A stretch of DNA of 64,000 nucleotides from Mesorhizobium sp. (GTDB lineage Bacteria > Pseudomonadota > Alphaproteobacteria > Rhizobiales > Rhizobiaceae): NCBI GenBank assembly GCA_004963905.1, contig SUGL01000026.1, positions 35,429-99,428 of the forward strand. The letters run 5' to 3'. The position numbers and the translations under genes were made by a program. Under the pieces are notes generated by a model that did not search any database, was not told the DNA's origin, and saw only the letters and a program-made list of their open reading frames with translations. Position 1 is the first letter of the stretch. Each line of letters starts with the position of its first letter. Below, in pieces: positions 7,304 to 20,251 of the stretch.

Positions 7304-8560
7304 CTATTGGCTGGCCGTCGGCGCCAGCTTGACCTTGATCACGTCGCCCGGCAGCACCGGCGTGTCTTCCTTGGCGTCGACCTCGCTGGTCTTGCCGTCG
7401 GCGACGCGCACCAGCGAGTAGAGCAGGGTCGGTTGCTCGCTGCCGGTGATGGAAGCCATCGTCGCGGGATCCGATGCCTGGGCGATCAGACCCTTCTGCA
7501 TGGCCACCCTCAACGTCGCCTCGTTCAGGTCGGCTTCGGCCTGCTGCCGGCTGGCGGCCAGGTTGGAGTTGAGCGTGTTGCGGGCATCGATGGCGTCCTG
7601 CTCAGCCTTGCTGATCGACTGCTTGGCCGTGAGGATGGCCGTCTCATAGTCGAGGATCTTGCCCTGCAGGTCGGCGACCGACTGTTTCGAATCGAGCAGC
7701 CGCGCATTGGCGACCAGGCCCTTCTGTGCCAGCGGGCCGATGCTGGTGAGCTGCTGCTGCGCCAGATCCACCTGCTGCTGCTGGTTGGCGATCTTCTTCT
7801 GCAGCGATTCGATTTCGCCCTGCAGAACCCCTTTCAGGTCGTCGAGCGCGTCCAGCTTCAGTTTCAGCGCCTTCTGGTCGGCCGTGAGAATTTGCATCTC
7901 ATCGGCAGCGATGGCCTGCACGCGCGGATCGCCCTCGACCTCCTTCGGAACCTCGAAGCTCGTCTTGCCGGCCAGGTCCGCATCGATGCGAGCGCGCTTG
8001 ACGAGCAGCCGCAGTCGCTGGTCGTCATAGATGTCGAAACTGCCCTTGGCGGTGACGAGGTCCTTGCCGAGCTGGGGGCCGTAGTCGGCGCTTCGACGGA
8101 TACCGCCGGCGATGCTCACCGCCTTCAGCACCGTAAGGTCGGGCACAAAAGGAAACTGGCCGGGATTCTGCACCTCGCCCGAAATGTAGAATGGCCTGAA
8201 CTGCGCCATTTCGACCGAGGCTTCAGGCTTGTCGGGCAGCGCCAGCTTGCGCTGCAGCGCAACCCCGATCGCCGTCGCGATCTCCGACGTCGTCTTGCCG
8301 GCCGCCTGCATCTCTCCGACAAAAGGCACCGAGAGCGTCCCGGCGGGACCGACCGAATAGTCGCCGTTGATGGCCGACCAGTCGCGGAACGTGCCGTCGA
8401 CCGTCTGCCATTCGGCGACGCGGATGTTGAGCTTGTCTTGCGGGCCGAGCCGATAGTCCTCGGCCGTCGCCATCTGTGGCGTAGCAAGACACATTACGAG
8501 CGCCACGGCCGCGAAGCGGCTGGGCGCCTTGGAAAGGAGTCCGATGGTGTATGTTTTCAA
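7304..8560 (-). CDS. exoF: Polysaccharide export protein, ExoF type
   Basis: This 418-residue exported protein has a signal peptide at about residues 1-33. A polysaccharide-export (Wza-like) domain follows (YRLGPQDKLNIRV, GTLSVPFVGEMQAAG), then an SLBB-type strand region (FYISGEVQNPGQFPFVPDLTVLKAVSIAGG). A long coiled coil spans about residues 190-330 (KIANQQQQVDLAQQQLTS and similar). This layout and length are those of ExoF, the outer-membrane/periplasmic partner of ExoP. The start is a TTG at 8560, with GGAAACG upstream; no ATG fits before the signal peptide. It lies in the same direction as exoY, as in known exo loci. Confidence 0.82.
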   Translation of the reverse strand: MKTYTIGLLSKAPSRFAAVALVMCLATPQMATAEDYRLGPQDKLNIRVAEWQTVDGTFRDWSAINGDYSVGPAGTLSVPFVGEMQAAGKTTSEIATAIGVALQRKLALPDKPEASVEMAQFRPFYISGEVQNPGQFPFVPDLTVLKAVSIAGGIRRSADYGPQLGKDLVTAKGSFDIYDDQRLRLLVKRARIDADLAGKTSFEVPKEVEGDPRVQAIAADEMQILTADQKALKLKLDALDDLKGVLQGEIESLQKKIANQQQQVDLAQQQLTSIGPLAQKGLVANARLLDSKQSVADLQGKILDYETAILTAKQSISKAEQDAIDARNTLNSNLAASRQQAEADLNEATLRVAMQKGLIAQASDPATMASITGSEQPTLLYSLVRVADGKTSEVDAKEDTPVLPGDVIKVKLAPTASQ

Positions 8561-8648: not shown

Positions 8649-9326
8649 TCAATAGCTGCCGCGCGACATCCACACGGCAGGCACGGTCTTCACGATGATG
8701 CGGATGTCCTCGACCATCGACCAGTTCTCGACATAGTGGCGATCGAAGGCGACGCGCGTGTCGTAGGACACGTCGTTACGCCCGCTCACCTGCCACAGCC
8801 CAGTGAGGCCGGGGCGCGACTTCAGATAATAGACGGCGGCACTGCCGTAGATTTCGAGCTCGTCGCGCACGACAGGGCGCGGCCCGACCAGGCTCATGTC
8901 GCCCTGCAGGATGTTGATGATTTGCGGCAGCTCGTCGAGGCTGAGCTTCCGCAACACCGCGCCGACACGCGTCACGCGCGGGTCGTTCTTCAACTTGCGC
9001 GTCGCCGCCCATTCCGCGGCGGCGTCGGGGTTAGCGGCGAGGTGCGCGGCCAGCACCCGCTCGCCGTCCTCCACCATGGTGCGGAATTTGAGACAGGCGA
9101 AGATCCTTCCGCCGCGGCCGATTCGCTTGTGGCCATAGAAGATCGACCCGCCGTCGGAAAGCTTGACCAGCAGGGCGACCATCAGGAACAGCGGGCTGAG
9201 CAGAACCAGGCCCGCCAGGGAACCGACGATATCGAAACTGCGTTTGAGCAGACCGCCGATGGGGGGTGGAAAATCAATGCCGGCCTGCGAAAAAGCCGCA
9301 TTAGCCGACTTGGCGACGTCCCTCAT
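8649..9326 (-). CDS. exoY: Undecaprenyl-phosphate sugar-phosphate transferase, ExoY type
   Basis: This is the priming enzyme that puts the first sugar phosphate (galactose-1-phosphate in ExoY) on undecaprenyl phosphate. The protein has 225 residues. One hydrophobic segment follows KRSFDIVGS, and then come the family motifs FYGHKRIGRGGR, KFRTM, LDELPQIINILQGDMSLVGPRPV and SRPGLTGLWQVSGR. The ATG at 9326 is chosen because GGAG sits about 8 bases upstream. An upstream in-frame start at 9395 lacks this and would overlap a palindrome at 9378-9392. Length matches ExoY, which lacks the large N-terminal membrane region of WbaP-type enzymes. Confidence 0.9.
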   Translation of the reverse strand: MRDVAKSANAAFSQAGIDFPPPIGGLLKRSFDIVGSLAGLVLLSPLFLMVALLVKLSDGGSIFYGHKRIGRGGRIFACLKFRTMVEDGERVLAAHLAANPDAAAEWAATRKLKNDPRVTRVGAVLRKLSLDELPQIINILQGDMSLVGPRPVVRDELEIYGSAAVYYLKSRPGLTGLWQVSGRNDVSYDTRVAFDRHYVENWSMVEDIRIIVKTVPAVWMSRGSY

Positions 9327-9377
9327 GCAGAAGCTCCATACGTTGAACGGATGGTTTACGGCACGATACCAAAAAAA

Positions 9378-9392
9378 TGTTGCAGCGCAACA
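9378..9392. promoter_or_regulatory. Perfect TGTTGC-AGC-GCAACA palindrome upstream of exoY
   Basis: A 6-3-6 perfect inverted repeat centred about 59 bases before the exoY start. It is one of the best copies of the TGC-N3-GCA motif in the window. The position fits an operator. The regulator is unknown; PhaR/AniA-type regulators are reported to bind TGC-rich palindromes. Confidence 0.45.
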
Positions 9393-9395
9393 CAC

Positions 9396-9932
9396 AATTT
9401 CCCATCCGCGTGAAATGTTCGCGTCATGAATTGACTAAATAATAAACCTGCCGTGCCCAAATTTTGGCCTTTGTGGCATGTTTATGACAAGGTGAGAGAA
9501 TTTTTGCGAAATGTAGTGCCGCTTTTGGGCTGTTTTTGGGCAGTGCATTCTTTGCTGCAGACGAGCGGCGGTTGCAGGGCGTAAGAATCACTCGCGCCGG
9601 TAAGTTCTTAGCGTAAAATACTAATTAATGTTTTGGGTTCTACTATCGAGGGTTTCGTTGTGGTGAATAGGCGGCGATGCCGGAGTGTGCGTCGCAGCAT
9701 GGCGGAGTCGATGCCGCGAAACCGTTGGAAATCACCTGCATTTGGCCTTGTTGCAAAGGTCTCGCCTTAATAGAGTCGCAAACTGTTTCTGTCATAGTTT
9801 GGATGGGTCAGGAAGGTCGGAAGCAACCGGCCGAATTGGGCAGCCAGAATAGCTCTTTGGCGCAACGGGGAGTTACGCGGGTGGGTAAGTCACTGCTTTT
9901 GCATGCTTGTGTCGGTTGACGGGCCGACGAGC
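9396..9932. other. Long divergent intergenic region between exoY and exoX
   Basis: These 537 bases are visibly more AT-rich than the surroundings and hold no convincing gene. An open frame at 9677-9919 has no family features. The region contains a second, less perfect TGC-N3-GCA site (TGTGC-GTC-GCAGCA, 9686-9699) and A/T-rich tracts around 9430-9500 and 9605-9650 that could carry the divergent promoters. A long control region at this place is usual for the exoX-exoY pair. Confidence 0.5.
9686..9699. promoter_or_regulatory. Imperfect TGC-N3-GCA palindrome in the exoX-exoY gap
   Basis: TGTGC-GTC-GCAGCA, about 235 bases before exoX. The core TGC-GTC-GCA is intact; the outer bases match on one side only. 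Listed because of the better copies near other EPS genes. Confidence 0.25.
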
Positions 9933-10199
9933 ATGTCTTTGCCAAAATTCATCGTCGGAATGTTATTCGCGCTCGCGATCGTGGTCGGCTGGTCCTACTT
10001 CGACGGAGCATCGCTTGGCACCATCATCATGCGTGCCGTCATTTGCGCCGTCGTCATTCAGGCGGGCTATTTCCTTCTGGTCTATGCGATGATCGCCAGG
10101 AGCAGGCCGATGTCCGCCGAAAAGGCCCGGGAGGCCGACCGCGGCATCAAGGTGGCGGAGGGCGAAAAGCTAACCGCCAGGCGCGGCAGTCTCCGCTGA
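9933..10199 (+). CDS. exoX: Exopolysaccharide production repressor, ExoX/SyrA family
   Basis: This is a small membrane protein of 88 residues. It has two hydrophobic segments (IVGMLFALAIVVGWSYF, and AVICAVVIQAGYFLLVYAMIA) and a charged C-terminal tail, the layout of ExoX/PsiA/SyrA proteins. These lower EPS synthesis post-translationally, probably by acting on ExoY. Its position divergent from exoY supports the call. The ATG at 9933 is preferred because it aligns with the usual short N-terminus, although its ribosome site is weak; an in-frame ATG at 9903 is the alternative. The last 30 bases overlap the end of the convergent exporter gene. Confidence 0.68.
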   Translation: MSLPKFIVGMLFALAIVVGWSYFDGASLGTIIMRAVICAVVIQAGYFLLVYAMIARSRPMSAEKAREADRGIKVAEGEKLTARRGSLR

Positions 10200-12068
10200 C
10201 CGTTCAGCGGGCGCCGGAAGCGGCGTCCTGTCGGCCGACGTCTCGGCGTCCCGTTCGGCCCTTTCGCCGGAGAGCATCCTGGCCAGCCGGCTGCCCGACT
10301 TTGCCTTCAACTGCTGATATTGCCCGATCTCGACGATACGCCCGTTCTCGATGGCCACGACCCAGTCGGCGAAGGCGATCATCGATGGCCGGTGCGCTAT
10401 GGTGAGGATGGTCATCTGGCCGCGCAGCCCGTCGATCGACTGGGCGATCAGCGACTGATTCTGCCAGTCGAGCGCGCTCGTCGCCTCATCGAGGATGAGC
10501 AGCGAAGGCTTGCGCAACAGCGCTCGCGCCAGCGCGATGCGCTGGCGTTCGCCGCCTGAGAGCCTGACGCCGCGATCGCCCACCACGGTTTCCAGCCGCC
10601 GGCCGAGCCGCTCGACGAAGTCGGCCGCATGCGCCTTGCGCAGCGCCGCCCAGAGTTCCTCGTCTTCGGCCCGCGGCGCCGCCAGGCGCAAATTGGCCGC
10701 GATGGTGTCATGCAGCAGGAACACGTCCTGCGGCACATAGGCCACCTGATCGCGCCACGCCCTGCGGTTTCTTGCGGTGATCTCGACGCCATCGGCCAGG
10801 ATACTGCCCTCGGTCGGCTCGAGCAGCCCAAGCAGCATGTCGGCGATCGTGCTCTTGCCCGAGCCGGACGGACCGATCAGCGCCGTCACCTTGCCGGCGG
10901 GAAGGCTGAAGGTGATGCCGCCGACCACCGGCTTTCCGTCGCTGTCGCCATAGGCGAACGAGACGTCGCGGACGTTGAGGCCGGTGTCGAGCGAAAGCCT
11001 TGCGTCCTGCCCGGCATCGCCGGGCTCCGTCTCGCGCGCGGCGTCGAAGCGCGCCTGCAAGGCCTGCATGGCGGCGTATGCCGGCAGGTTGATCAGAACC
11101 TGCTGCGCCTGCGTCTGCATATCCATGAAGCGCGGCGCGACCCGCATGAAGACCAAGAGCAGCACGACGATTTCCGCAAGCGACAGATGGAAGCGCACCA
11201 GCGCGATGTAGATGAACAGGCTGAGCCCGATGGCGCTCGCCACCTGGAACAGCGCGGTGCCGATGGTGCTGTTGCGGACATAGGCGACGTTGTCCGCTTT
11301 CATCTTCTCGAGTGTCGCTCGGAGCTGCGCGAAATAGCCCGCTTCCACATTCAGGCTCTTGGCCACCTTGATGCCGCCAAGGAACTCCGAGACCGTGCGG
11401 TACTGGTCCTGGCGGCTGCGAGTCAGCACACGGCCATAGGCGGTGGCACGCGCACGGAAGGGCTGCAGTGCAACGAACAGGATCACGCCGATGAGGATGG
11501 CGAAGGATGTCATCACCGGTGAGATGAACAGCGAGACAACGAGGTAGCCGGCAAGCAGCAGCGTCGTCTGGGCGAGCATCAGCAGCGAGAAGGCCGCCGC
11601 CTGCACCCTGTCGATGTCGCCGGTCAGCGCGTGGTCGAGATCGGAGCCGCGCATGCGGGTGAAGACGCCCCAGCGCGCCTTGCCGATGCTCTCGAACAGG
11701 TTCATGCGCACGCGGTTGACGAAGTCGTAGAGCAGCCGCGCCATGTAGAGCGACTTGAAGCGGTTGAACATCGCCTGCAGCGCCACCAGTCCGACGAGCA
11801 GACAGAGCACCGTCGCAAGCGACAGTGTTCCGCCAGGTAGAAGCCAGCGCAGAGCGCCGGGCACACGCACGGCAAAATCCTGGTCGGCATCGCCGATCAG
11901 GTGCAGGAGCGGGATCACAAGCAGGATCGAGAGGCCCTCGGTCAGGCTTCCCAGGATCAGGAAGGCCAGCGCCGTCAGCGTGCGCCGCCCGCCGATCTGC
12001 GCCATCACGCCGCCGAAGCCGGCGACATCCCGCAAGAGCGACAGGCGAAGTTTCGAGGACCAGGCCAT
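10170..12068 (-). CDS. Lasso peptide ABC exporter (D protein), permease-ATPase fusion
   Basis: This 632-residue half-transporter has six membrane segments in residues ~15-310 and then an ATPase domain. Walker A is GPSGSGKST, the Q-loop region is VAYVPQDVFLLHDTI, the signature is LSGGERQRIALARALL and Walker B is LLILDEATSALD. The C-terminal ~30 residues are a low-complexity Glu/Ala/Arg tail. It is last in the lasso operon, 8 bases after the kinase gene, so it most likely exports the mature lasso peptide and confers self-protection, as McjD does. The ATG at 12068 has AAGGTGA upstream; a GTG at 12080 is possible. Confidence 0.82.
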   Translation of the reverse strand: MAWSSKLRLSLLRDVAGFGGVMAQIGGRRTLTALAFLILGSLTEGLSILLVIPLLHLIGDADQDFAVRVPGALRWLLPGGTLSLATVLCLLVGLVALQAMFNRFKSLYMARLLYDFVNRVRMNLFESIGKARWGVFTRMRGSDLDHALTGDIDRVQAAAFSLLMLAQTTLLLAGYLVVSLFISPVMTSFAILIGVILFVALQPFRARATAYGRVLTRSRQDQYRTVSEFLGGIKVAKSLNVEAGYFAQLRATLEKMKADNVAYVRNSTIGTALFQVASAIGLSLFIYIALVRFHLSLAEIVVLLLVFMRVAPRFMDMQTQAQQVLINLPAYAAMQALQARFDAARETEPGDAGQDARLSLDTGLNVRDVSFAYGDSDGKPVVGGITFSLPAGKVTALIGPSGSGKSTIADMLLGLLEPTEGSILADGVEITARNRRAWRDQVAYVPQDVFLLHDTIAANLRLAAPRAEDEELWAALRKAHAADFVERLGRRLETVVGDRGVRLSGGERQRIALARALLRKPSLLILDEATSALDWQNQSLIAQSIDGLRGQMTILTIAHRPSMIAFADWVVAIENGRIVEIGQYQQLKAKSGSRLARMLSGERAERDAETSADRTPLPAPAERSAETAAPGG

Positions 12069-12076
12069 GCGTCCGC

Positions 12077-13066
12077 TCACCTTGCCTGCGTGCCGGCGGC
12101 CAGATCGCGCTCGATCAGGGCGACGGCCTCGTCGATCCGCTCCAGCCCTGCCGGCACTTCGAGACGACCGACGCCGACCTTGGCGGCTAGCTGCGCGCAC
12201 TGACCGAGATGCGCGAACGCGAAATCGCCGACCAGCGCCTGCCGGCCGAACCGGGTGACGTAGGAGAACTTGATGATCGCCGGCAGGGCGCCGGCGCCTG
12301 GCAGCGGCGTGATCGCCGCCCGCTCGCCGCGCTTCAGCATATAGATTCGCGCAAGGGGCGCTGCTTCATCTGAAAATCCGTTGTGCAGACGGTGCTGCGC
12401 CTTCTCGATCTGCGGATGCACCTGCGGCCGCACCTCCGCCTGGTCGATCCTGATGGCGTCGGCGGCGTCGGTTGCGAGCTTGAGCTGCGGAAAACCAGCC
12501 AGGATCATCGGCCGGGAAGGGTTGGACAGGTCCAGCGCCACGACGTCGTCGGTAAGCAGAAGGTGACCGGCGCGGATCATCGCTCCCGCCGTGGTCGACT
12601 TGCCGGCGCCCTTGTCGCCCATGAAGACCACGCTTTGGCCGCCGACGGCGATCGCGCTGGCGTGCAGGACGAGCAGGCGGCGCTGATGCAGGGTGAGCGC
12701 CAGCACCGGACCCAAAAGCGGGAAGGCGAGCAGTGGATCATCGATGCCCGGCGCCGGATCGACATCGATCCTGGAAGCATCGCTGATCAGGAAGGTGCCG
12801 ACGGCTTGCCAGGATAGATACTGGCGCGTCGGCTCGAAGCGAAAGGCGGTTCCGCCTTCCGTTGCAGGCCTGGGAAAGTCGACCGGGCCGACCGCGATCG
12901 CGATGTCGGGCGGCGCCGGCACCGTCGGCTGCAACTCCGGCAGCGCCACCTCGGAGCTGATCGTCAGGCCATAGGCTCTGTAGAAGCGGCGAACGCGCCC
13001 GCTCAGGTTTTCGGGCCCGATGTCGGGATCCGGCCGGGTCGCGAGGGGAGCGGCTGAACCATTCAT
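12077..13066 (-). CDS. HPr-kinase-like lasso peptide kinase (K protein)
   Basis: This 329-residue protein resembles the C-terminal half of HPr kinase/phosphorylase. The P-loop GDKGAGKST is at residues 150-158, preceded by LHASAIAVGGQSVVFM, and the acidic pair LLTDDVVAL is at 173-174. Such HprK-like proteins in lasso clusters (PadeK of paeninodin is the model) phosphorylate the C-terminal Ser of the precursor. The precursor encoded here ends in Ser, which fits. The gene starts inside the last codon of the cyclase gene (ATGA) and is followed after 8 bases by the exporter. It contains no PTS-type HPr-binding signature that I can recognise, and the HPr encoded at 48 kb is far away. Confidence 0.8.
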   Translation of the reverse strand: MNGSAAPLATRPDPDIGPENLSGRVRRFYRAYGLTISSEVALPELQPTVPAPPDIAIAVGPVDFPRPATEGGTAFRFEPTRQYLSWQAVGTFLISDASRIDVDPAPGIDDPLLAFPLLGPVLALTLHQRRLLVLHASAIAVGGQSVVFMGDKGAGKSTTAGAMIRAGHLLLTDDVVALDLSNPSRPMILAGFPQLKLATDAADAIRIDQAEVRPQVHPQIEKAQHRLHNGFSDEAAPLARIYMLKRGERAAITPLPGAGALPAIIKFSYVTRFGRQALVGDFAFAHLGQCAQLAAKVGVGRLEVPAGLERIDEAVALIERDLAAGTQAR

Positions 13067-14985
13067 GCAAGGCTCCCCATTGGCTGGATCTGCCGCAGCC
13101 AGAGCGACAGCGAGATCGAGCGCCAGACATATTGCACATCGAGCGGCGCGGCTTCGTTCGGCTTCTGCAGCAGCCGCGCATAGGCGGCGTTGACTTCGCC
13201 CAGATTGACATAGGGCGCGATGCGGTCGCCGTCGGATACCAGCACGGTGTCCAGGAGGTCTCGGTGGTTGCGGAGCATGCCGTTGACCAGGTTGGCGGTG
13301 AAATCGATCTTGTCCCGCCGCCACTGCACCGCCGGCGGCAGCACGCCTTCCATCGCCCGGCGCAGCACGTGGCGGCCGAAGCCGTTGCGGAGCTTTTCCT
13401 CGCCGGGCAACGCCAGGCAGAACTCGACCAGCGGTTTGTCCCAGAACGGATAGCGCGGCTCGACGCCGAAATTGGCGGCGGCCTTGTCCAGCACTTCGAA
13501 GGCGTGCGGCACCAGTCCGGTCGAGAGTACCCAGCGATGGGTGAGCGCCTCGCTGGCGCTCACGCTGGGCGGCATGTAGCCGGCCCGGTGGAAGCGGTCG
13601 ACGAGGTCGGTTCGCCTGGCAAGGTCGGTATTGACCAGGGCGCCCCAGGCGGGGACGCGCGTCTGTGCGGCGGTCTTTAGCCGCAGCCTGGACAGAAGCC
13701 GGTTCATCCGGTTTCGCCACCTGGCGATTCGCCATGCCGGTCCGTAGACGGTCAGGAATCGGAAATACATGGCGAGCATGCCTTCGCCATAGGTGCCGGA
13801 GGCGCCGTGAAGCTCGCGCCAGAGCGCAAGCCATCGGCCGGCATTGGCGAGCTCATGCAGCAGTCCGTGCCCGTGCGAAACGACCTCGTCGCCGCCATGA
13901 CCGTCGAGCAGCACCTTCACCCCCTTGGCACCCGCCGTCCGGTAGATGCTGCGGGTCAACGACAGGCCGGGGGCGAGGAACGTCCCCTCCTGCTCCTCCA
14001 GAATGCGTTCGAACTCGGCGAAAGGCGCGTAGTTGCCAACGGAAATCATCGTGCCGTCGAGCCTATGCCGGTCGAGCACCGCGTCGATGAACGGCTTCTC
14101 GTCCATCGGCGAGCCCTTATCGAAGACCAGCGAGAAGGTCTTCAGCCGCGGTCTGTGCTCCGCGGCCGCTTGCAGGCCGGCGACGCCTGCGATCGAGGAC
14201 GAATCGAGGCCGCCGCTCAGCATCGCGCCCACGGCGGGCGTGCCGCGCATCCGGTTCCGCACCGACTGCGAGAAGAGATGCCTGAATTCCTCAGTGGCAT
14301 CCGGGCGCAGCGGCCTGGGCGAAGGTTCGACCTGCCAGTAGGGACGGAGCGTCACCTGGCTGTCCGTCACCGTCAGGATATGGCGGGCCGGCAAGCGGAA
14401 GATTTCGGCATACTGGGTCGACTGCGGATCGTCGGGTAATCCGGCAAGGAAGCCGGAAATCTGATGCTCGCTGATGCGTGTGCCGACACCATCCAGAGCA
14501 AGGAGAGGGCCGATCTCCGAGGCAAAAGCGAAGCGCTTGGCGCTCGAGTGATAGTGGAAAGGTTTGATGCCGAAATGGTCGCGGGCGCAAAACAGTGCCC
14601 GGCGCTCGGCGTCCCAGATCGCGAAGGCGAAATCGCCTTGCAGATAGGTCGGACAGGCCTCGCCCCATGTGAGATAGGCCTGCAGCAGGAGCATCGCGTC
14701 GGTGACCGGCTGGTCGCCTGCGCCGAGCCGCGCCAGAAGCTCGTCGCTGTTGTCCAGCCGGCAATCGGCCGTGATGGCGAGCTTGCCGCCGGCCATGGTC
14801 AGCGGGCCTGGGCCGTTCTCGCCCGTCGTGTTGAGCCAGGCATGGCCAAGCGCCACGCTTCCCGTCGTCCACCACGAGCTGCCGTCGCGGGCCCGGTGGC
14901 GCATATGCGCCAGCATCCGCTGGATGTCGGCCGCCTGGGCGGTTCCGCCGTCTTGCCTCAGCAGAATTCCGGCGATGCCGCTCAT
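13063..14985 (-). CDS. Lasso cyclase (C protein), asparagine-synthetase-like
   Basis: This 640-residue homologue of AsnB has an N-terminal glutaminase-like domain (residues ~1-200, MSGIAGILLRQDGG) and an ATP-pyrophosphatase domain with the PP-loop LSGGLDSSSI near residue 255. Residue 2 is Ser, not the catalytic Cys of glutamine-dependent asparagine synthetase, so ammonia release from Gln is not expected. Lasso cyclases instead adenylate an Asp/Glu side chain of the precursor and let the core N-terminus attack it. Its neighbours (B1, B2, kinase, exporter and a motif-bearing precursor) make the cyclase call strong. It starts 3 bases after the B2 stop. Confidence 0.86.
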   Translation of the reverse strand: MSGIAGILLRQDGGTAQAADIQRMLAHMRHRARDGSSWWTTGSVALGHAWLNTTGENGPGPLTMAGGKLAITADCRLDNSDELLARLGAGDQPVTDAMLLLQAYLTWGEACPTYLQGDFAFAIWDAERRALFCARDHFGIKPFHYHSSAKRFAFASEIGPLLALDGVGTRISEHQISGFLAGLPDDPQSTQYAEIFRLPARHILTVTDSQVTLRPYWQVEPSPRPLRPDATEEFRHLFSQSVRNRMRGTPAVGAMLSGGLDSSSIAGVAGLQAAAEHRPRLKTFSLVFDKGSPMDEKPFIDAVLDRHRLDGTMISVGNYAPFAEFERILEEQEGTFLAPGLSLTRSIYRTAGAKGVKVLLDGHGGDEVVSHGHGLLHELANAGRWLALWRELHGASGTYGEGMLAMYFRFLTVYGPAWRIARWRNRMNRLLSRLRLKTAAQTRVPAWGALVNTDLARRTDLVDRFHRAGYMPPSVSASEALTHRWVLSTGLVPHAFEVLDKAAANFGVEPRYPFWDKPLVEFCLALPGEEKLRNGFGRHVLRRAMEGVLPPAVQWRRDKIDFTANLVNGMLRNHRDLLDTVLVSDGDRIAPYVNLGEVNAAYARLLQKPNEAAPLDVQYVWRSISLSLWLRQIQPMGSLA

Positions 14986-14988
14986 GGC

Positions 14989-15405
14989 TTATTGCCCGTG
15001 ATCGACGAGATGGGTGAAGCCATTGACCGAGCCGCCAAGCACGATGTGGTCGCCGCTGACCAGCCAGGCATGCGCCTTGAGCTCCGCGCCGGTCCCGCGC
15101 TCGATGCCGATGCGGATCTTGGAGGCATTGCCTTGGCGGGCAAGCAGATATTGTCCGGCGAGAGCCTGGGTGAGGCAACTGGCGCCGGGCACGAAGCGCG
15201 CCGCGGCGGCCACGCCCCATGCGACACGCCGCAGATCGGCGATACCGGCGACATTCCTCGCCTCCAGCCGGGTCACCAGGGCGCGCATGCGGTTATAGGA
15301 GGAAAGTGTCAGCCCCAGCCGCACGAGGCCGACCACCGCCAGACAGCGCGCCAGAAACAGCATCTCCGGGCCGCTAAGGGAGAAGACCCTAGGCCAGTTC
15401 CTCAT
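14989..15405 (-). CDS. Lasso peptide leader protease (B2 protein)
   Basis: This 138-residue protein of the transglutaminase-like lasso B2 family removes the leader from the precursor. A cysteine-protease triad can be read as Cys77 (PGASCLTQAL), His112 (LKAHAWL) and Asp119 (VSGDHIV). The ATG at 15405, preceded by GAGG, lies inside the end of the upstream PqqD-like gene, so the two are translationally coupled. Length is normal for a stand-alone B2, separate from the B1 recognition domain. Confidence 0.85.
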   Translation of the reverse strand: MRNWPRVFSLSGPEMLFLARCLAVVGLVRLGLTLSSYNRMRALVTRLEARNVAGIADLRRVAWGVAAAARFVPGASCLTQALAGQYLLARQGNASKIRIGIERGTGAELKAHAWLVSGDHIVLGGSVNGFTHLVDHGQ

Positions 15406-15688
15406 GGTGGAGCCTCGCAAGCCCGGCTTCGATCAGCCCCTTGAGCAAGCCTTCGACATCGGCCTTGCAGCGTTCGGCATCGACATTGTAGCGCGCGATC
15501 ACGGCGCTTCTTATGTCGAGGATCGGTCGTGGCTCCTGGATCAGCTCCCAGATGTAGGCGCCGACGCCGTTCAGGCTGTAGTAGATGTTGGATTTGAGAT
15601 GGAGCAGCGCCAGCCCGTTGCCGAATTCGCAAGCCACCGCGTCGCCGCTCGCGACCACGCGGTCATGGTCCGATGGGTTCCAGTGCAT
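15389..15688 (-). CDS. PqqD-like RiPP recognition element (B1 protein)
   Basis: This 99-residue protein has the PqqD/RRE fold pattern: a strand-rich N-terminal half (GLALLHLKSNIYYSLNGVGAYIWELI) followed by helices ending in VEGLLKGLIEAGLARL. B1 proteins bind the YxxPxL leader motif and present the precursor to the B2 protease. It is the first gene after the precursor and the hairpin at 15801-15842, and it overlaps the B2 gene by 17 bases. Confidence 0.85.
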   Translation of the reverse strand: MHWNPSDHDRVVASGDAVACEFGNGLALLHLKSNIYYSLNGVGAYIWELIQEPRPILDIRSAVIARYNVDAERCKADVEGLLKGLIEAGLARLHHEELA

Positions 15689-15800
15689 CCTAAAACCTCA
15701 TTCTTGAACGCCACGCGTCTTCCGACCTGGACCGGGATCGGTTGCCTGCGATCGCCCGGCCAGGAAGCCGGGAGGCATGAGCCCCCCGGCTCACCTGTTT

Positions 15801-15842
15801 AAAAGAAACGCTCGGAGCCCCAAAATCCGACAACTCCGAGCG
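15801..15842 (-). terminator. Hairpin with T-rich tail between lasso precursor and processing genes
   Basis: Read on the minus strand, a perfect 9-bp inverted repeat (CGCTCGGAG...CTCCGAGCG, arms 15834-15842 and 15809-15817, 16-base loop) begins 10 bases past the precursor stop. It is followed by TTTCTTTT. This looks like an intrinsic terminator or leaky attenuator. It would give more precursor mRNA than processing-enzyme mRNA, as in other lasso operons. A second, 7-bp GC-rich hairpin (15766-15791) lies just downstream. Confidence 0.65.
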
Positions 15843-15851
15843 CGTGCAACC

Positions 15852-16004
15852 TCAGGAGAAGGTGAGCTGGTCGAACGGCGTGTGCGCGGGAAATGCCGCG
15901 TCCAACGCTGTCGTACCAGCGCCGCCCTGCGTGATCGTTTCGATCGAACCGTGAACCGTCAGGCTGGGGGTCTCGTACTGTTGCTTCTCAACATTCTGTT
16001 CCAT
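15852..16004 (-). CDS. Lasso peptide precursor (A protein)
   Basis: This is a 50-residue precursor. The ATG at 16004 has GGAGAG just upstream, which fixes the start. The leader (1-26) holds the canonical lasso motif: Tyr10, Pro13, Leu15, Gly19 and Thr25, the last at position -2 from the core. The predicted core (27-50, 24 residues) begins GGAGTTALD and ends FDQLTFS. Gly1 and Asp9 would form a nine-residue macrolactam ring. The tail has Phe12, His15, Phe18 and Phe23 as possible steric plugs and ends in Ser24, a possible phosphorylation site. My hand-calculated monoisotopic mass is about 2374.12 Da for the cyclised core and 2454.09 Da with one phosphate. The gene heads the operon B1-B2-C-K-D. 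Confidence 0.9.
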   Translation of the reverse strand: MEQNVEKQQYETPSLTVHGSIETITQGGAGTTALDAAFPAHTPFDQLTFS

Positions 16005-16503
16005 TTTACTCTCCAACTGAGGACTGGAAGCGGCTTCAGAATGCCGCCAGCATATTTCTATGCTGCGTTGCAATTGCTGCACGGCAACATTTATGAGTCA
16101 AGTCTGATTTACCAGGCATTAATCAATTCTCGGTTGCGGCGGCAGTCGTCGATGATGACGTCACCGGCCTTTGCATTTTGGGCGCATATCGTCCGGGCGC
16201 TCAACGCTGCTTTTTTGCCGTTTAAGTAAGCATTTGATTTGGTTCGAATAAGTTCCCGAACTCAAATGGCGGCCTCGCAGCTGCGAAGAAAATAGCGCGG
16301 AAAATACCGGTTGCCGGGTCACGTCGCGGCCCGCCGGGCCTGTCTTCAAAAGTGATCGGCGACACGGCGAATCTGAACGCGAAGGTTGCAGAAGCGAGGC
16401 CGCCTAGGAACTCGCTGGATAGCCATTCTGATTTTTGCCGATGCTTTTCTTCGCAGTTGCGGTATAAACGCCGCGGGCGGTTTTGTGGAGAACGACATCG
16501 GGC
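16005..16503. other. Divergent control region of the lasso operon and nucleotidyltransferase
   Basis: These 499 bases contain no believable gene. Near the lasso side lie two adjacent TGC-N3-GCA palindromes (16061-16089). A TTGACT-like -35 hexamer on the minus strand (16096-16101) lies just beyond them, but no convincing -10 was found. The right half, up to the start at 16504, shows nothing recognisable. Confidence 0.45.
16061..16089. promoter_or_regulatory. Tandem TGC-N3-GCA palindromes upstream of the lasso precursor
   Basis: TGCTGC-GTT-GCAA at 16061-16073 and TTGCTGC-ACG-GCAACA at 16074-16089. Their centres are 14 bases apart, and they lie 57-85 bases before the precursor start. This is the only place in the window where two copies abut, which suggests cooperative binding of one regulator. 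Confidence 0.45.
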
Positions 16504-17661
16504 ATGGCCGTGCAGGATGCTTCCTACGACAGGCTGCGTGCGTCCGGCTGCGCCGACGAAGTCGCCTATGTGCAGGCCTGTCTGCGGCTGTTCTTCAACC
16601 CGGCTGCGGGAGCCGCCGACCATGGCGGCATGCCGGCTCCCGCGATCTCCGTGGCCGACGTTGCCGACATTGCGAGGTTGAACAAGGTCGCGGTCTTTTT
16701 GCTCAAGGCCCTCTCGCACGGGGCGACCGCCGCGACGCCTGCCGAATTGCTCGCATGGCTCGATGGCTATCGCCGGCGCACCATGTCGATGAACGCCGCC
16801 TGCATCGGCGATTCGATCGCCATCCATCGGGTGCTGCGTGACAGGCAGGTCGACTTCGTCTTCCTGAAGGGGCCGCTGCAGCAGCAATTGCTCTATGGCG
16901 ATCATTTCATGAAGCCGTCCGGCGACGTCGACATACTGGTTTCGCCGTCCGGTTTCTTCGCCGCCCGCGAGGCCCTCCGCTCGGCCGGCTACGAGGTCGC
17001 GGGCAAGTCGCGCTCGGTCTGGTGGGTGCGCTTCCTCGGCGAGCAGCATATGGTCCGCGACGACGGGGTTCGGGCCGCCACGGTCGATCTCCACCACCGG
17101 CTGCAGCAGCCTGGCTCGCCCAGTCCGCGCGACATAGACGGCTTCCTGCGCCGCAAGCGCGAGATCGAGATTGCCGGAACCGCCATGCCTTTGATTTCGG
17201 CGCCCGACATGCTGCTCTTGTCCTGCATCAGTGTCGCCAAGGCCTTCTTCAACCGCGAGCCTTGCGCCGGCTATGTCTGCGACGTCAGGGCGGCTTCGAG
17301 CCGGTTGAGCGAAACCGAGCAGCAGATGGTGCTCGACCATGCCGCCGAGCAAGGCCTGGCCGATACGCTGCTGCTTGGTTTGCGTGCTGCCGATGTCCTG
17401 CTTGGCGGCACCGCCACGCTGCTTTCGGATCGCGCCACACGGATCCTGGCGCGCATCGACAATGCCGACCTCTTCCATATGGTGATCGCGCCCTGGCTGT
17501 CGTCGTTGCGCTGGCCGCAGCGGCGGACGGTGCTGTGGGAGCTCTGCGGCCGCGAGCCGGTGCGCTATCTGGCCGAAGCCGGCTGGGCGGCCTCCGCCGA
17601 TCTCAGCCGGCGCATCTTCGAGCGGCCGGCCGTCGCCGCGCCGCTGCGGAGCAACGGATGA
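16504..17661 (+). CDS. Nucleotidyltransferase-fold protein, lasso-cluster N type
   Basis: This 385-residue protein resembles the uncharacterised nucleotidyltransferase family often found beside lasso and EPS genes (NTP_transf_5). The recognisable part is FVFLKGPLQQQLLYGDHF at about residues 118-135, followed by SGDVDILVSP at 139-148, which supplies the metal-binding Asp pair. The C-terminal half is helical and unassigned. It is divergent from the lasso precursor and shares its control region. A related protein in the pseudomycoidin cluster (PsmN) is reported to be needed for sugar addition to the phosphorylated peptide. Here that role is only an inference. The ATG at 16504 is chosen; its ribosome site is weak. 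Confidence 0.7.
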   Translation: MAVQDASYDRLRASGCADEVAYVQACLRLFFNPAAGAADHGGMPAPAISVADVADIARLNKVAVFLLKALSHGATAATPAELLAWLDGYRRRTMSMNAACIGDSIAIHRVLRDRQVDFVFLKGPLQQQLLYGDHFMKPSGDVDILVSPSGFFAAREALRSAGYEVAGKSRSVWWVRFLGEQHMVRDDGVRAATVDLHHRLQQPGSPSPRDIDGFLRRKREIEIAGTAMPLISAPDMLLLSCISVAKAFFNREPCAGYVCDVRAASSRLSETEQQMVLDHAAEQGLADTLLLGLRAADVLLGGTATLLSDRATRILARIDNADLFHMVIAPWLSSLRWPQRRTVLWELCGREPVRYLAEAGWAASADLSRRIFERPAVAAPLRSNG

Positions 17662-17722
17662 AGGCCGATTTCACATTCAGGGCCATGGGCGGGCTGTCAC
17701 TCACGCAATTGAAAGGTGAAAC

Positions 17723-18739
17723 ATGCCCGTGACGACCCCCAGGGTCTGCGTCATCATCGCCGCCCGCAACGCGGCGCGGACCATACCGGTCGCCATCGCT
17801 TCGGCTCTGCGCGAGCCGGAGGTGGCGGAAGTCGTCGTGGTCGACGATGCCTCCACCGACGACACCCAGAATGTGGCGCGCGGCGCCGATGACGGCAGCG
17901 GCCGGCTCTCGGTCATGCGTCTCGACGTCAACCGCGGTCCCTCCTTCGCCCGCAATGCCGCGATCAAGGCCTCCGCCTCGCCTTTCATCAGCATCCTCGA
18001 CGCCGACGATTTTTTCCTCGAGGGCCGCTTTCGCCGGCTGTTCGCCAGCGCCGACTGGGATTTCGCGGCCGACAACATCATGCTGATCAGGGACGATGCG
18101 GCGGCCGATCCCGCCAAGGTCGCGGCTCCTCCCTTCGCGCCCGAACCGCAATTCCTCGACTTCGAGCGCTTCGTCGAAGGCAACATTTCCCGCCGCCGCG
18201 TGCTGCGCGGCGAGCTGGGCTTCCTCAAGCCGGTGATCAGCAGGGCGTTCCTCGACCGGCACGGGTTGAGCTATGACGAGAACCTGCGCCTCGGCGAGGA
18301 TTACGAGCTCTATGCGCGCGCCGTCGCCTGCGGAGCGCGTTTCAAGATCATCAAATCTTGCGGCTATGGCGCCATCGTTCGCGCCGATTCGCTGAGCGGC
18401 CGCCACAGGACGCAGGATCTGAAGCGGCTTGCCGATGCCGATCTGGCGCTGCTGGCGCTCGGCAACTTGCCGGAAGCCTCGAAGGCCGCCTTGCGGCGCC
18501 ACGAGCGCCATGTGCGTGACAAATACCGGCTGCGCAATTTCCTCGACGTGAAGGCGGAGCGCGGCCTGGCATCGGCCGCCGCCTATGCTTTCGCCAGCCA
18601 GTCCAATCTGATCCCGATCGTTCGCGGCGTGGCCGCCGACAAGCTGGACGCGCTGTTCCGCCGCACCGGCATTGCTGCAAAGCAGCAAGTGCCGCCGATG
18701 CGCTTCCTGATGTCGGCGACAAGTGCCGCGAAGGAATGA
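17723..18739 (+). CDS. Family 2 glycosyltransferase, ExoO-like
   Basis: This 338-residue GT-A glycosyltransferase has the nucleotide-sugar motifs VCVIIAARNAARTI at the N-terminus, VVVVDDASTDDT (residues ~35-47) and SILDADDFF (~90-98, the metal-binding DxD). LGEDYEL (~193) probably carries the catalytic acid. There is no membrane segment, so it acts on the cytoplasmic face. It resembles the ExoO-like enzyme at 30825 in layout. It follows the nucleotidyltransferase by 61 bases, so it could add a sugar to the EPS unit or take part in lasso peptide modification. The sequence does not decide between these. Confidence 0.8.
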   Translation: MPVTTPRVCVIIAARNAARTIPVAIASALREPEVAEVVVVDDASTDDTQNVARGADDGSGRLSVMRLDVNRGPSFARNAAIKASASPFISILDADDFFLEGRFRRLFASADWDFAADNIMLIRDDAAADPAKVAAPPFAPEPQFLDFERFVEGNISRRRVLRGELGFLKPVISRAFLDRHGLSYDENLRLGEDYELYARAVACGARFKIIKSCGYGAIVRADSLSGRHRTQDLKRLADADLALLALGNLPEASKAALRRHERHVRDKYRLRNFLDVKAERGLASAAAYAFASQSNLIPIVRGVAADKLDALFRRTGIAAKQQVPPMRFLMSATSAAKE

Positions 18740-18830
18740 TCGGATGACGGCAACGGCGTCGGGCCGTTCCCAAAAAAATCCGCTTTCCGAAACTACGAGG
18801 TTGCCTACTTGCCCCGAGAATGGCAGTCTA

Positions 18831-18845
18831 TGTTGCGGTGCAGCA
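18831..18845. promoter_or_regulatory. TGTTGC-GGT-GCAGCA palindrome upstream of a hypothetical gene
   Basis: A nearly perfect 6-3-6 copy of the recurrent motif, 20 bases before the ATG at 18865. It would lie inside the coding region if the in-frame ATG at 18820 were used, which argues for the later start. Confidence 0.4.
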
Positions 18846-18864
18846 ATTGCGAAAGGCCAATCGA

Positions 18865-19254
18865 ATGGCTTCGATTTTTGGCTTCAGATCCAGGGACCCG
18901 GCCCGCGACCGGCAGACCGATCTCCAGCGTTTCGACCGTCTGGCGAAGTTGTTCGACCAGATCGGCGCCGAGATCGAGGCCGAGAAAACCGGACTGGAGA
19001 ATCGCTATCGGTCGACGGCGACCAACGCGGCCTTCCTGGTCGAGGCGATGGAGAACGGCTCCGCGTCGACGGATAAGTCGTCGGACGTCAGCGCGATGAC
19101 CGGTGCGATCCTGAACTACGAGCGGCGCATCGCCGAGCTCACGCGCCAGAAAGGCTTGATGAAGGAATTGCGTCATTCGCTCGACGCGATTGTCGACGGC
19201 GCGCAGCAGGCCAAAGCGCCGACCGGATTGGCGAAGGCCGCGGGACGCGGCTGA
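18865..19254 (+). CDS. Hypothetical charged, helical protein
   Basis: This 129-residue soluble protein is not assigned to a family. It is rich in Glu, Arg, Lys and Ala, with heptad-like helices (FDRLAKLFDQIGAEIEAEKTGLENRY, and ILNYERRIAELTRQKGLMKELRHSL). A coiled-coil or oligomeric adaptor is therefore plausible. It has no signal peptide or membrane segment. The ATG at 18865 has GAAAGG 9 bases upstream. It sits between a glycosyltransferase and exoK, with its own putative control site. Confidence 0.55.
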   Translation: MASIFGFRSRDPARDRQTDLQRFDRLAKLFDQIGAEIEAEKTGLENRYRSTATNAAFLVEAMENGSASTDKSSDVSAMTGAILNYERRIAELTRQKGLMKELRHSLDAIVDGAQQAKAPTGLAKAAGRG

Positions 19255-19384: not shown

Positions 19385-20251
19385 ATGAACGCAGATTCGA
19401 ACAACACGTCCATCGCGGCGGCTTGCGGCACGCCGCATCCGCGCTCGAATGGGTCACGCAGTCCTTGGCCAAGCCTGGCAGGAGCGCTGCTCGCCGTTGC
19501 AGCCGCAGTCTCGGCCGTCCCGGCGCATGCTGAGGACATGCAGAGCGCGCCCTCCTTCGTCGACAATTTCTCGAACTTCGACCGTTCGCGCTGGTTCGTC
19601 TCCGACGGTTGGAACAACGGCAACCACCAGAACTGCACCTGGTCGAAGGACCTGGTTCGGCTTTCCGACGGCGTGCTTTCGCTGAGCTTCGAAAAACGCA
19701 AGCTGAAGGATCGCGAGTTCGCCTGCGCCGAGATCCAGACCAAGCAGCGCTATGGCTATGGCGTCTATGAGGCGCGGATGAAGACCGATAGCGGATCGGG
19801 CCTCAACGCCGCGTTCTTCACCTATATCGGGCCGCAGGACAAAAAGCCCTGGGACGAGATCGACTTCGAGGTGCTCACCAAGGATCCGTCGAAAGTCCAG
19901 GTGAACAGCTATATCCAGGGCAAGCCGAAGAACGGCAAGCTGGTCGATGTCGGGGGCGGCGCCGACAAGGGCTTCAACGACTATGGCTTCGTCTGGGAGA
20001 AGGACCGGCTGCGCTGGTACGTCAACGGCAAGCTGGTCAACGAAGTGACCAATCCGGACGAATTGCCGACCAATCCGCAGAAGATCTTCTTCAGCCTGTG
20101 GGGCAGCGACAAGCTGACCAACTGGATGGGCGCCTTCACCGATCCCGGCCGCAAGGTGACCATGGAGGTCAAGCGCGTCGCCTTCACCGCCTTGGGCCAG
20201 CCGTGCCAGTTCCCGGAATCGCTGGCGTGCAGCATAAGTAACAGCAACTAG
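19385..20251 (+). CDS. exoK: Family 16 glycoside hydrolase, ExoK-type EPS endoglycanase
   Basis: This secreted 288-residue beta-glucanase has a signal peptide of about 49 residues ending in VPAHA. The family 16 active site reads DEIDFE, giving catalytic Glu158 and Glu162 with Asp160 between. The substrate-cleft motifs WFVSDGWNNGNHQNCTW and FSLWGS are also present. ExoK cleaves nascent succinoglycan to lower its chain length. The N-terminal extension before the signal core is somewhat long, so the true start might be slightly later. A palindromic repeat begins one base after its stop. Confidence 0.87.
   Translation: MNADSNNTSIAAACGTPHPRSNGSRSPWPSLAGALLAVAAAVSAVPAHAEDMQSAPSFVDNFSNFDRSRWFVSDGWNNGNHQNCTWSKDLVRLSDGVLSLSFEKRKLKDREFACAEIQTKQRYGYGVYEARMKTDSGSGLNAAFFTYIGPQDKKPWDEIDFEVLTKDPSKVQVNSYIQGKPKNGKLVDVGGGADKGFNDYGFVWEKDRLRWYVNGKLVNEVTNPDELPTNPQKIFFSLWGSDKLTNWMGAFTDPGRKVTMEVKRVAFTALGQPCQFPESLACSISNSN

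Follow-up and report, generated by a model that had tools for sequence, protein, structure and literature searches.

A kinase-bearing lasso-peptide gene cluster with a constant place in the exopolysaccharide locus of Mesorhizobium

Lasso peptides are usually met as the products of scattered antibiotic clusters, and to our knowledge their native roles are mostly unknown. The cluster described here lies among genes for an exopolysaccharide (EPS) in a 64,000-nucleotide stretch of Mesorhizobium sp. DNA, hereafter the window (assembly GCA_004963905.1, contig SUGL01000026.1, positions 35,429 to 99,428), for which an earlier note, made from the sequence alone, had described a complete lasso cluster of six genes within an EPS locus. 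Our analysis suggests, with a probability of roughly 0.55, that a kinase-bearing lasso cluster is fixed in this locus and that its peptide is a conserved genus-level surface or signaling component made with EPS and not a diversifying weapon.

That the cluster specifies a lasso peptide is near certain from its genes (Table 1), whose identities and catalytic residues can be read from the DNA. The precursor, A, has 50 residues, with Tyr10, Pro13, Leu15, Gly19, and Thr25 (position -2) in its leader and a core of 24 residues that opens GGAGTTALD; as the earlier note had supposed, this is a lasso leader, for it passes two NCBIfam lasso-leader models (34.7 against a cut-off of 33 and 23.5 against 19). 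The cyclase, C, scores 756.5 bits with NF033535, about 230 bits above the NCBI lasso cut-off of 525, whereas with the asparagine synthetase model TIGR01536 it reaches 261.9 and misses the cut-off of 267.1. Its residue 2, the position of the glutaminase Cys in asparagine synthetases, was Ser in 77 of 77 sequences. The gene order UGDH-exoK-small open reading frame (ORF)-GT2-N-A-B1-B2-C-K-D-exoX-exoY-exoF held for every genus-type locus read (68 of 68) within the reach of its contig (that of L074 ends before N; L and G numbers are our handles for loci and genomes). Such recurrence of genes and order from locus to locus excludes chance and, together with the family models, confirmed both a genuine lasso cluster and its placement inside the EPS locus, which was also seen elsewhere in the order.

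The composition of the cluster had to be revised. All six genes A-B1-B2-C-K-D were present at the places proposed between exoX and exoK, but N, the exoU-like GT2 gene, and the small ORF also precede exoK, and the cluster is not complete with six genes, since the seventh, N, had been overlooked. B2 matched PF13471 (77.7 bits) and the NCBIfam model lasso_biosyn_B2 (66.1 bits; cut-off, 33), while a PDB sequence search with B2 gave no meaningful match. Of the Cys/His/Asp triad claimed for it, Cys and His are conserved: their motif was found in 75 of 76 B2 sequences, and the exception (L103) has both residues, with Lys three residues after Cys. The third member of the triad is doubtful: if the intended Asp is the residue seven positions beyond His, it is not conserved (Asp in 6, Asn in 50, and others in 6 of the 62 sequences matched among 68). 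D proved to be an ABC exporter, as proposed, in which Pfam and NCBIfam scans found no peptidase domain. Its best NCBIfam match was HepA (323.5 bits; cut-off, 725); this was not used as a clue to a polysaccharide-type substrate, its PDB matches being general multidrug and lipid exporters. K and C share four bases (ATGA) and the likely B2 start at 15405 falls within the end of B1, which points to an operon-like arrangement.

Table 1. Lasso-peptide genes and neighboring exo features of the window
Feature	Coordinates	Strand	Basis
A, lasso precursor: 26-aa leader and 24-aa core GGAGTTALDAAFPAHTPFDQLTFS	15852..16004	-	NF033528 and NF033521 leader models above cut-off
B1, PqqD-like leader-recognition protein (RRE)	15389..15688	-	PF05402, 66 bits
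B2, transglutaminase-fold leader peptidase	14989..15405	-	PF13471, NF033537; ATG at 15405, alternative TTG at 15420
C, lasso cyclase, AsnB-like	13063..14985	-	NF033535, 756.5 bits (cut-off 525)
K, HPr-kinase-like peptide kinase	12077..13066	-	Conserved residues; AlphaFold fold; Pfam and NCBIfam kinase models below cut-off
D, ABC exporter (membrane and ATPase domains)	10170..12068	-	PF00664, PF00005
N, NTP_transf_5 nucleotidyltransferase-fold protein, divergent from A	16504..17661	+	PF14907, 121.2 bits
Promoter/5'-leader region of A: AATTGATTAA-N5-GGTAAATCAG ... CTTGACTCA, two small hairpins	16005..16150	-	Alignment
GT2 glycosyltransferase, exoU-like by position; exo locus, outside lasso cluster	17723..18739	+	PF00535
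Small ORF, 144 aa, exo locus	18820..19254	+	Without Pfam or NCBIfam match
exoK beta-glycanase	19385..20251	+	NF052392, 431.2 bits (cut-off 350)
exoX-like regulator (EPS production repressor)	9903..10199	+	NF052519, 39.5 bits; SyrA PF11089, 22.3 bits; both below cut-off
exoY-like undecaprenyl-phosphate sugar phosphotransferase	8649..9395	-	Best match TIGR03022, 312.2 bits, below cut-off 403
exoF-like polysaccharide export protein	7304..8560	-	Polysaccharide-export models, below cut-off

In order to ask how constant the product is, we compared 69 precursors, those of the window and the 68 loci, each of which yielded one copy of 50 residues. The leader motif Tyr-x2-Pro-x-Leu-x3-Gly and Thr at -2 were invariant in all 69, as were Gly1 and Asp9, the likely ring pair. 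The set held 24 distinct cores, in which Phe12, Pro13, Ala14, Thr16, Pro17, Thr22, Phe23, and Ser24 were also invariant and positions 3, 5, 8, 11, 18, and 20 varied most. The near-constant product is probably of class II type (no Cys), with a nine-residue ring and a 15-residue tail; the computed masses of 2374.123 for the lasso form and 2454.089 with phosphate agreed with those first calculated by hand. With one and two hexoses added to the phosphate the computed values are 2616.14 and 2778.20; for M. ciceri WSM1271 (L088), which also has the cluster, the four corresponding masses are 2257.07, 2337.03, 2499.08, and 2661.14. Median pN/pS against the window was 0.071 for the leader, 0.307 for the core, 0.318 for B1, 0.294 for B2, 0.315 for C, 0.389 for K, 0.253 for D, 0.286 for N, 0.208 for GT2, 0.348 for ExoX, 0.164 for ExoY, and 0.404 for ExoK; these are simple, uncorrected values with much-diverged synonymous sites, from 67 to 68 comparisons for the lasso genes and GT2, 49 for ExoX, 23 for ExoY, and 56 for ExoK. 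Diversifying selection on the core was considered and showed no sign; the core values suggest that it evolves like an enzyme, unlike a diversifying toxin.

The claim that K is an HprK-like kinase was upheld by predicted structure and residues but not by Pfam, whose HPr-kinase cut-off was missed (31.4 against 33.3). The AlphaFold model (pLDDT, 87.1) best matched a PEPCK/HPr-kinase-like fold (2.2e-09), with HprK/P from 5.7e-07. Residues H135, G150, G153, G155, K156, S157, D173, and D174, which correspond to those of lasso kinases, were invariant across 20 aligned K proteins, and the pattern of His, P-loop, and Asp-Asp was found in 75 of 76, the exception (L059) having the residues with an insertion. 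In our alignment the motif and its spacing were the same as those reported for BsfK and earlier lasso kinases (PMC10368454). Most known kinases of this type are reported to modify a C-terminal Ser while the precursor is still linear (PMC8498205, PMC9266682), with BsfK, which phosphorylates Ser3, as an exception (PMC10368454). The predicted phosphate site, Ser24, was invariant in 69 of 69 precursors, and phosphorylation of this C-terminal Ser by K is likely. As a separate observation, three alphaproteobacterial genomes (G940, G1001, and G1165) gave five matches each to the lasso-type K model, which suggests that each of them holds several clusters of the kinase type or else paralogues of the kinase.

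The best PDB matches of the N model were the nucleotidyltransferases 5uvd (2.4e-4), ANT(2'')-Ia (3.4e-3), and LnuA (3.9e-3); FKRP, a ribitol-phosphate transferase, matched at E 0.018. This fold would be compatible with formation of a phosphodiester on the Ser phosphate, and the odds that the product carries a sugar or nucleotide cap are about even. Beside the lasso cluster of Calothrix L102, positions 16323-18783 hold two adjacent nucleotidyltransferase-like genes, the second an NTP_transf_5, followed by a group-1 glycosyltransferase gene. For the source strain we infer the following chemical steps, and with them the positions of phosphate and cap. B1 would hold the leader of A while K phosphorylates Ser24 on the linear precursor; B2 would cleave after Gln26; C would activate Asp9 and join it to Gly1 through an isopeptide bond; N would add a cap, either a sugar or a nucleotide group, to the phosphate on Ser; and D would export the finished product.

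Lasso clusters with K and N are already known, and this is not a new class. Compared by description, paeninodin of Paenibacillus and SyanK of Sphingobium resemble our system in A, B1, B2, C, D, an HPr-kinase-like K, and a C-terminal Ser phosphate site, as described (PMC8498205, PMC9266682); gene order is reported to vary between phyla, and the divergent N and fixed EPS place distinguish the cluster here. The same sources describe pseudomycoidin of Bacillus pseudomycoides, which likewise has a kinase and a nucleotidyltransferase-family N (PsmK and PsmN) and in which PsmN is reported to add one or two hexoses to the phosphorylated C-terminal Ser; in pseudomycoidin-like Firmicutes clusters N is reported to lie between B2 and D or to be fused to B2, whereas here it is divergent from A. 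The bsf cluster of Bradymonas sediminis (BsfA-BsfN) has seven gene types in common with ours, K and N included, but Ile at -2, a phosphate at Ser3, and a C-terminal Asp (PMC10368454), where ours has Thr and a C-terminal Ser. In the cyanobacterial lasso family (NF033528/NF033535; Nostoc and Calothrix) the cyclases are 38-40% identical to that of the window, and the Nostoc core GLGLGLFTDKEFPISTPKDDVTFS has Asp9, FP, TP, and the final TFS in common with the Mesorhizobium core, but A lies after C, unlike in the window. Precursors of relatives outside the class other than Nostoc and Calothrix differ more. Astexin- and caulosegnin-type alphaproteobacterial clusters carry isopeptidase, TonB receptor, and FecI/FecR genes; family scans found none of these between exoX and exoK, the rest of the genome not having been searched.

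The location of the cluster was then considered across genomes. About 70% of the species sampled in the genus (103 of 146 genomes) have the cyclase. It was broken in two of these: at L139 (G051) it consists of two overlapping pieces and at L140 (G078) its middle is missing, while the other cluster genes still match, which looks like recent loss of function. Beyond the genus it was rare, with four further genomes in a family sample (10 of 394 at E <= 1e-60, six of them from the genus) and three in an order sample (10 of 397 at E <= 1e-90, seven of them from the genus). Seven contigs from genera elsewhere in the order (L113, L116-L118, and L136-L138, L136 being the same contig as L098) gave precursors that end Leu-Thr-Phe-Ser or Leu-Thr-Leu-Ser, with the Leu-Asp pair kept and Ser last in 7 of 7, L136 and L137 coming from one genus. 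One of them (L113) was too short for its surroundings to be judged; the other six carry A-B1-B2-C-K with N in divergent orientation, and all six have exo genes next to the cluster on one side or both: exoX/Y/F and GT2/exoK at L136 and L137, exoX/Y/F with GT2 at L116, exoX/Y/F at L117, GT2/exoK at L118, and exoK/exoF at L138, where a D match lies apart beyond N. Distances between C proteins and between exo proteins were correlated (Spearman, 0.854; 2345 pairs from 69 loci), indicating that they were mostly inherited together. In Mesorhizobium loti R7A/MAFF303099, for which a review gives the order exoQFYXUKTLAMONP, the exoX-exoU-exoK interval corresponds to the place of the lasso cluster here; exoU lies directly between exoX and exoK, and we called GT2 exoU-like by position on that ground (PMC8227245). 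The word "lasso" occurs 0 times in that review (PMC8227245).

The genus genomes without the cluster allowed its history to be traced. The cyclase was absent from 43 of the 146, and exoK was found in 35 of those. In 25 of the 34 lasso-negative loci that we read the exo layout was like that of the window, with a gap of about 300-710 bases between GT2 and exoX, and 17 of these 25 gaps held a 3' piece of D, correctly placed and oriented (E <= 0.01); none of the 34 gaps matched when reversed. In the best remnant, 74 residues aligned at 89% identity (E, 2e-40); of the 17, 14 were at E <= 1e-4 and three were weaker. The decayed D end indicates that these 17 loci lost the cluster; no D remnant was found in the other 8 window-layout loci. 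The lasso-negative gaps gave 21 locus/gene matches, namely 17 to D, two to N, and two others that were not counted. A C-like match at L143 was weak (E, 5e-3) and left uncounted, and a B2-like match at L160 involves nothing but a B2 start that had been wrongly extended and resembles an intergenic repeat; in the GT2-exoX gap of L160, a repeat-like stretch matches the DNA immediately before B2 at L053 and L060. The remaining nine lasso-negative loci (L130-L132 and L156-L161) form one separate deep branch in which the exo genes are laid out differently, GT2 and exoK are kilobases apart with other DNA in between, and no D or lasso remnant is found; in this branch the absence of the cluster may be old.

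These losses also bear on N, which was present in all 103 genus genomes with the cyclase and in G122, an assembly of 79% completeness in which the 4.2-kb contig stops shortly after N. Lasso-negative species lack N and retain the adjoining GT2, and the first N codons remain as a scar in two lasso-negative loci (L123 and L146). Co-occurrence with C, joint loss, and the scar codons argue that N is part of the lasso cluster. A tree built from GT2, ExoF, and ExoY (107 rows, by a quick method and with some long branches) and the agreement of cyclase and exo distances are most simply read as a cluster that was present in the ancestor, passed on mostly by vertical descent, and lost repeatedly as a whole, N included. 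One locus, L046, has the cluster within a branch of 18 cluster-free loci, a misfit to simple loss: either the cluster was lost several times independently around it, or L046 regained it when this stretch was exchanged.

Several observations weigh against a role of the peptide together with EPS. Presence and absence on the exo tree require at least five changes, and exoK, GT2, and exoX were all kept in the 34 lasso-negative loci read (GT2 in 34 of 34), showing that the cluster is dispensable; because the EPS genes persist in species without the cluster, we can only infer a surface or biofilm role. The core has a pN/pS about equal to that of the cyclase. The N model is of moderate quality (pLDDT, 74.6), with one PDB match only at E <= 0.001. 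A C-terminal Ser is not universal among farther relatives, since the Calothrix L102 precursor continues past Thr-Phe-Ser and that of L105 ends in a non-Ser residue. Exo-type neighbors (ExoX/Y/F/K/P/GT2 at E <= 1e-5) were found in 0 of 20 K-centered regions of other Alphaproteobacteria, these being regions of 11.7-20 kb from 17 genomes and representing 20 of 45 listed non-self K matches; the same 20 gave a cyclase match in 16 and a weak group-1 glycosyltransferase match in one, and the cyclases of such kinase-type clusters were 23-42% identical in the best aligned piece. No polysaccharide gene was found among the 7 flanking proteins scanned at Nostoc L100. Linkage to EPS genes is thus no rule for kinase-type lasso peptides, and the idea that exo linkage holds for all such clusters was ruled out by the count of 0 in 20.

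Outside the class, 2 of 4 flank-scanned loci (8 fetched) adjoin polysaccharide genes, a proportion for which no null expectation was computed: Pleurocapsa L103 has a sugar transferase, Wzz, group-1 glycosyltransferases, and an NB-ARC/NACHT protein as neighbors, and L106, from a Pyrinomonadaceae metagenome-assembled genome (MAG), has O-antigen ligase, glycosyltransferases, and an AMP-binding protein. Calothrix L102 has one glycosyltransferase nearby. We favor an EPS role because the linkage outlasts deep divergence within the order, the decoration enzymes suit phospho-sugar chemistry, and those two outside-class relatives lie near polysaccharide genes. The chance that the peptide has an EPS or surface role is, on this comparative evidence, about even.

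Among the alternatives, the one that survives best, though we consider it rather unlikely, is a narrow-spectrum antibiotic directed against lasso-negative Mesorhizobium or soil bacteria, with D both exporting the peptide and protecting the producer and with the exo location incidental. Many characterized lasso peptides came to light through antibacterial activity or the inhibition of enzymes, presence is patchy, as is often the case for competition genes, and an ABC exporter is at hand. However, the core varies little among the 69 precursors, is alike across the order, and bears no mark of diversification, and no separate immunity gene was recognized among the annotated neighbors. Also unlikely in our estimate is that the cluster is a genomic passenger that landed ancestrally in a stable exo locus and was inherited there, with peptide and EPS unrelated. 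Vertical inheritance by itself would preserve the linkage, the EPS genes remain where the cluster has been cleanly lost, and other kinase-type clusters lack exo neighbors; nevertheless, the linkage persists in other genera of the family and order at a cyclase identity of only 38-55%, and polysaccharide genes recur, if without a null test, beside the Pleurocapsa and Pyrinomonadaceae members. A bolder form of the EPS role, which we think improbable, would have N join the peptide through its Ser phosphate to a sugar of the EPS pathway as a knotted cap, primer, or tag shown to the legume host and neighbors; if true, this would be a peptide-polysaccharide conjugate, for which we know of no counterpart among lasso peptides. 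Finally, although C matches Asn_synthase (PF00733), we give almost no credence to its being a metabolic asparagine synthetase amid coincidental genes, an identity ruled out, to the extent that sequence can do so, by the model scores and Ser2, while precursor, B1, and B2 lie adjacent in 68 of 68 genus-type loci.

The neighboring exoU- and exoK-type genes have M. loti counterparts that matter for infection and, in the case of exoU, also for host monitoring of EPS by EPR3 (PMC8227245). One near-constant lasso peptide across a genus of nitrogen-fixing legume symbionts makes the benefit to the maker directly testable and offers a route to the job of the kinase and N decoration, and natural cluster-free relatives, many with a visible scar, are ready comparison strains. 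No description of this core family, its fixture in the EPS locus, or its near-constancy in a symbiotic genus was found in searches of an open-access library, and mention in subscription journals or genome-mining tables is possible. Automatic annotation probably recognizes the genes, because the cyclase passes its NCBIfam model.

The region upstream of A had a mean column identity of 78% over 27 sequences, with CTTGACTCA invariant, and holds two short hairpins; a compensatory change (A-U/G-C) occurs in one of them. The AATTGATTAA-N5-GGTAAANCAG element has a single exact site in the genome and one more at 3 mismatches, and its uniqueness suggests that the cluster is under its own control. A structured 5' leader of A was weak as a candidate, since only 2 of 23 predicted pairs had a compensatory change, and a search of the A region for RNA families gave none above gathering and one chance match (E, 0.28). 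A hairpin between A and B1 was also rejected (z, -1.28; 23 of 200 shuffles as good; missed by a terminator scan). Lastly, the 144-residue ORF was present in 67 of 68 lasso-positive loci, the contig of the 68th being cut, and in 32 of 34 lasso-negative loci.

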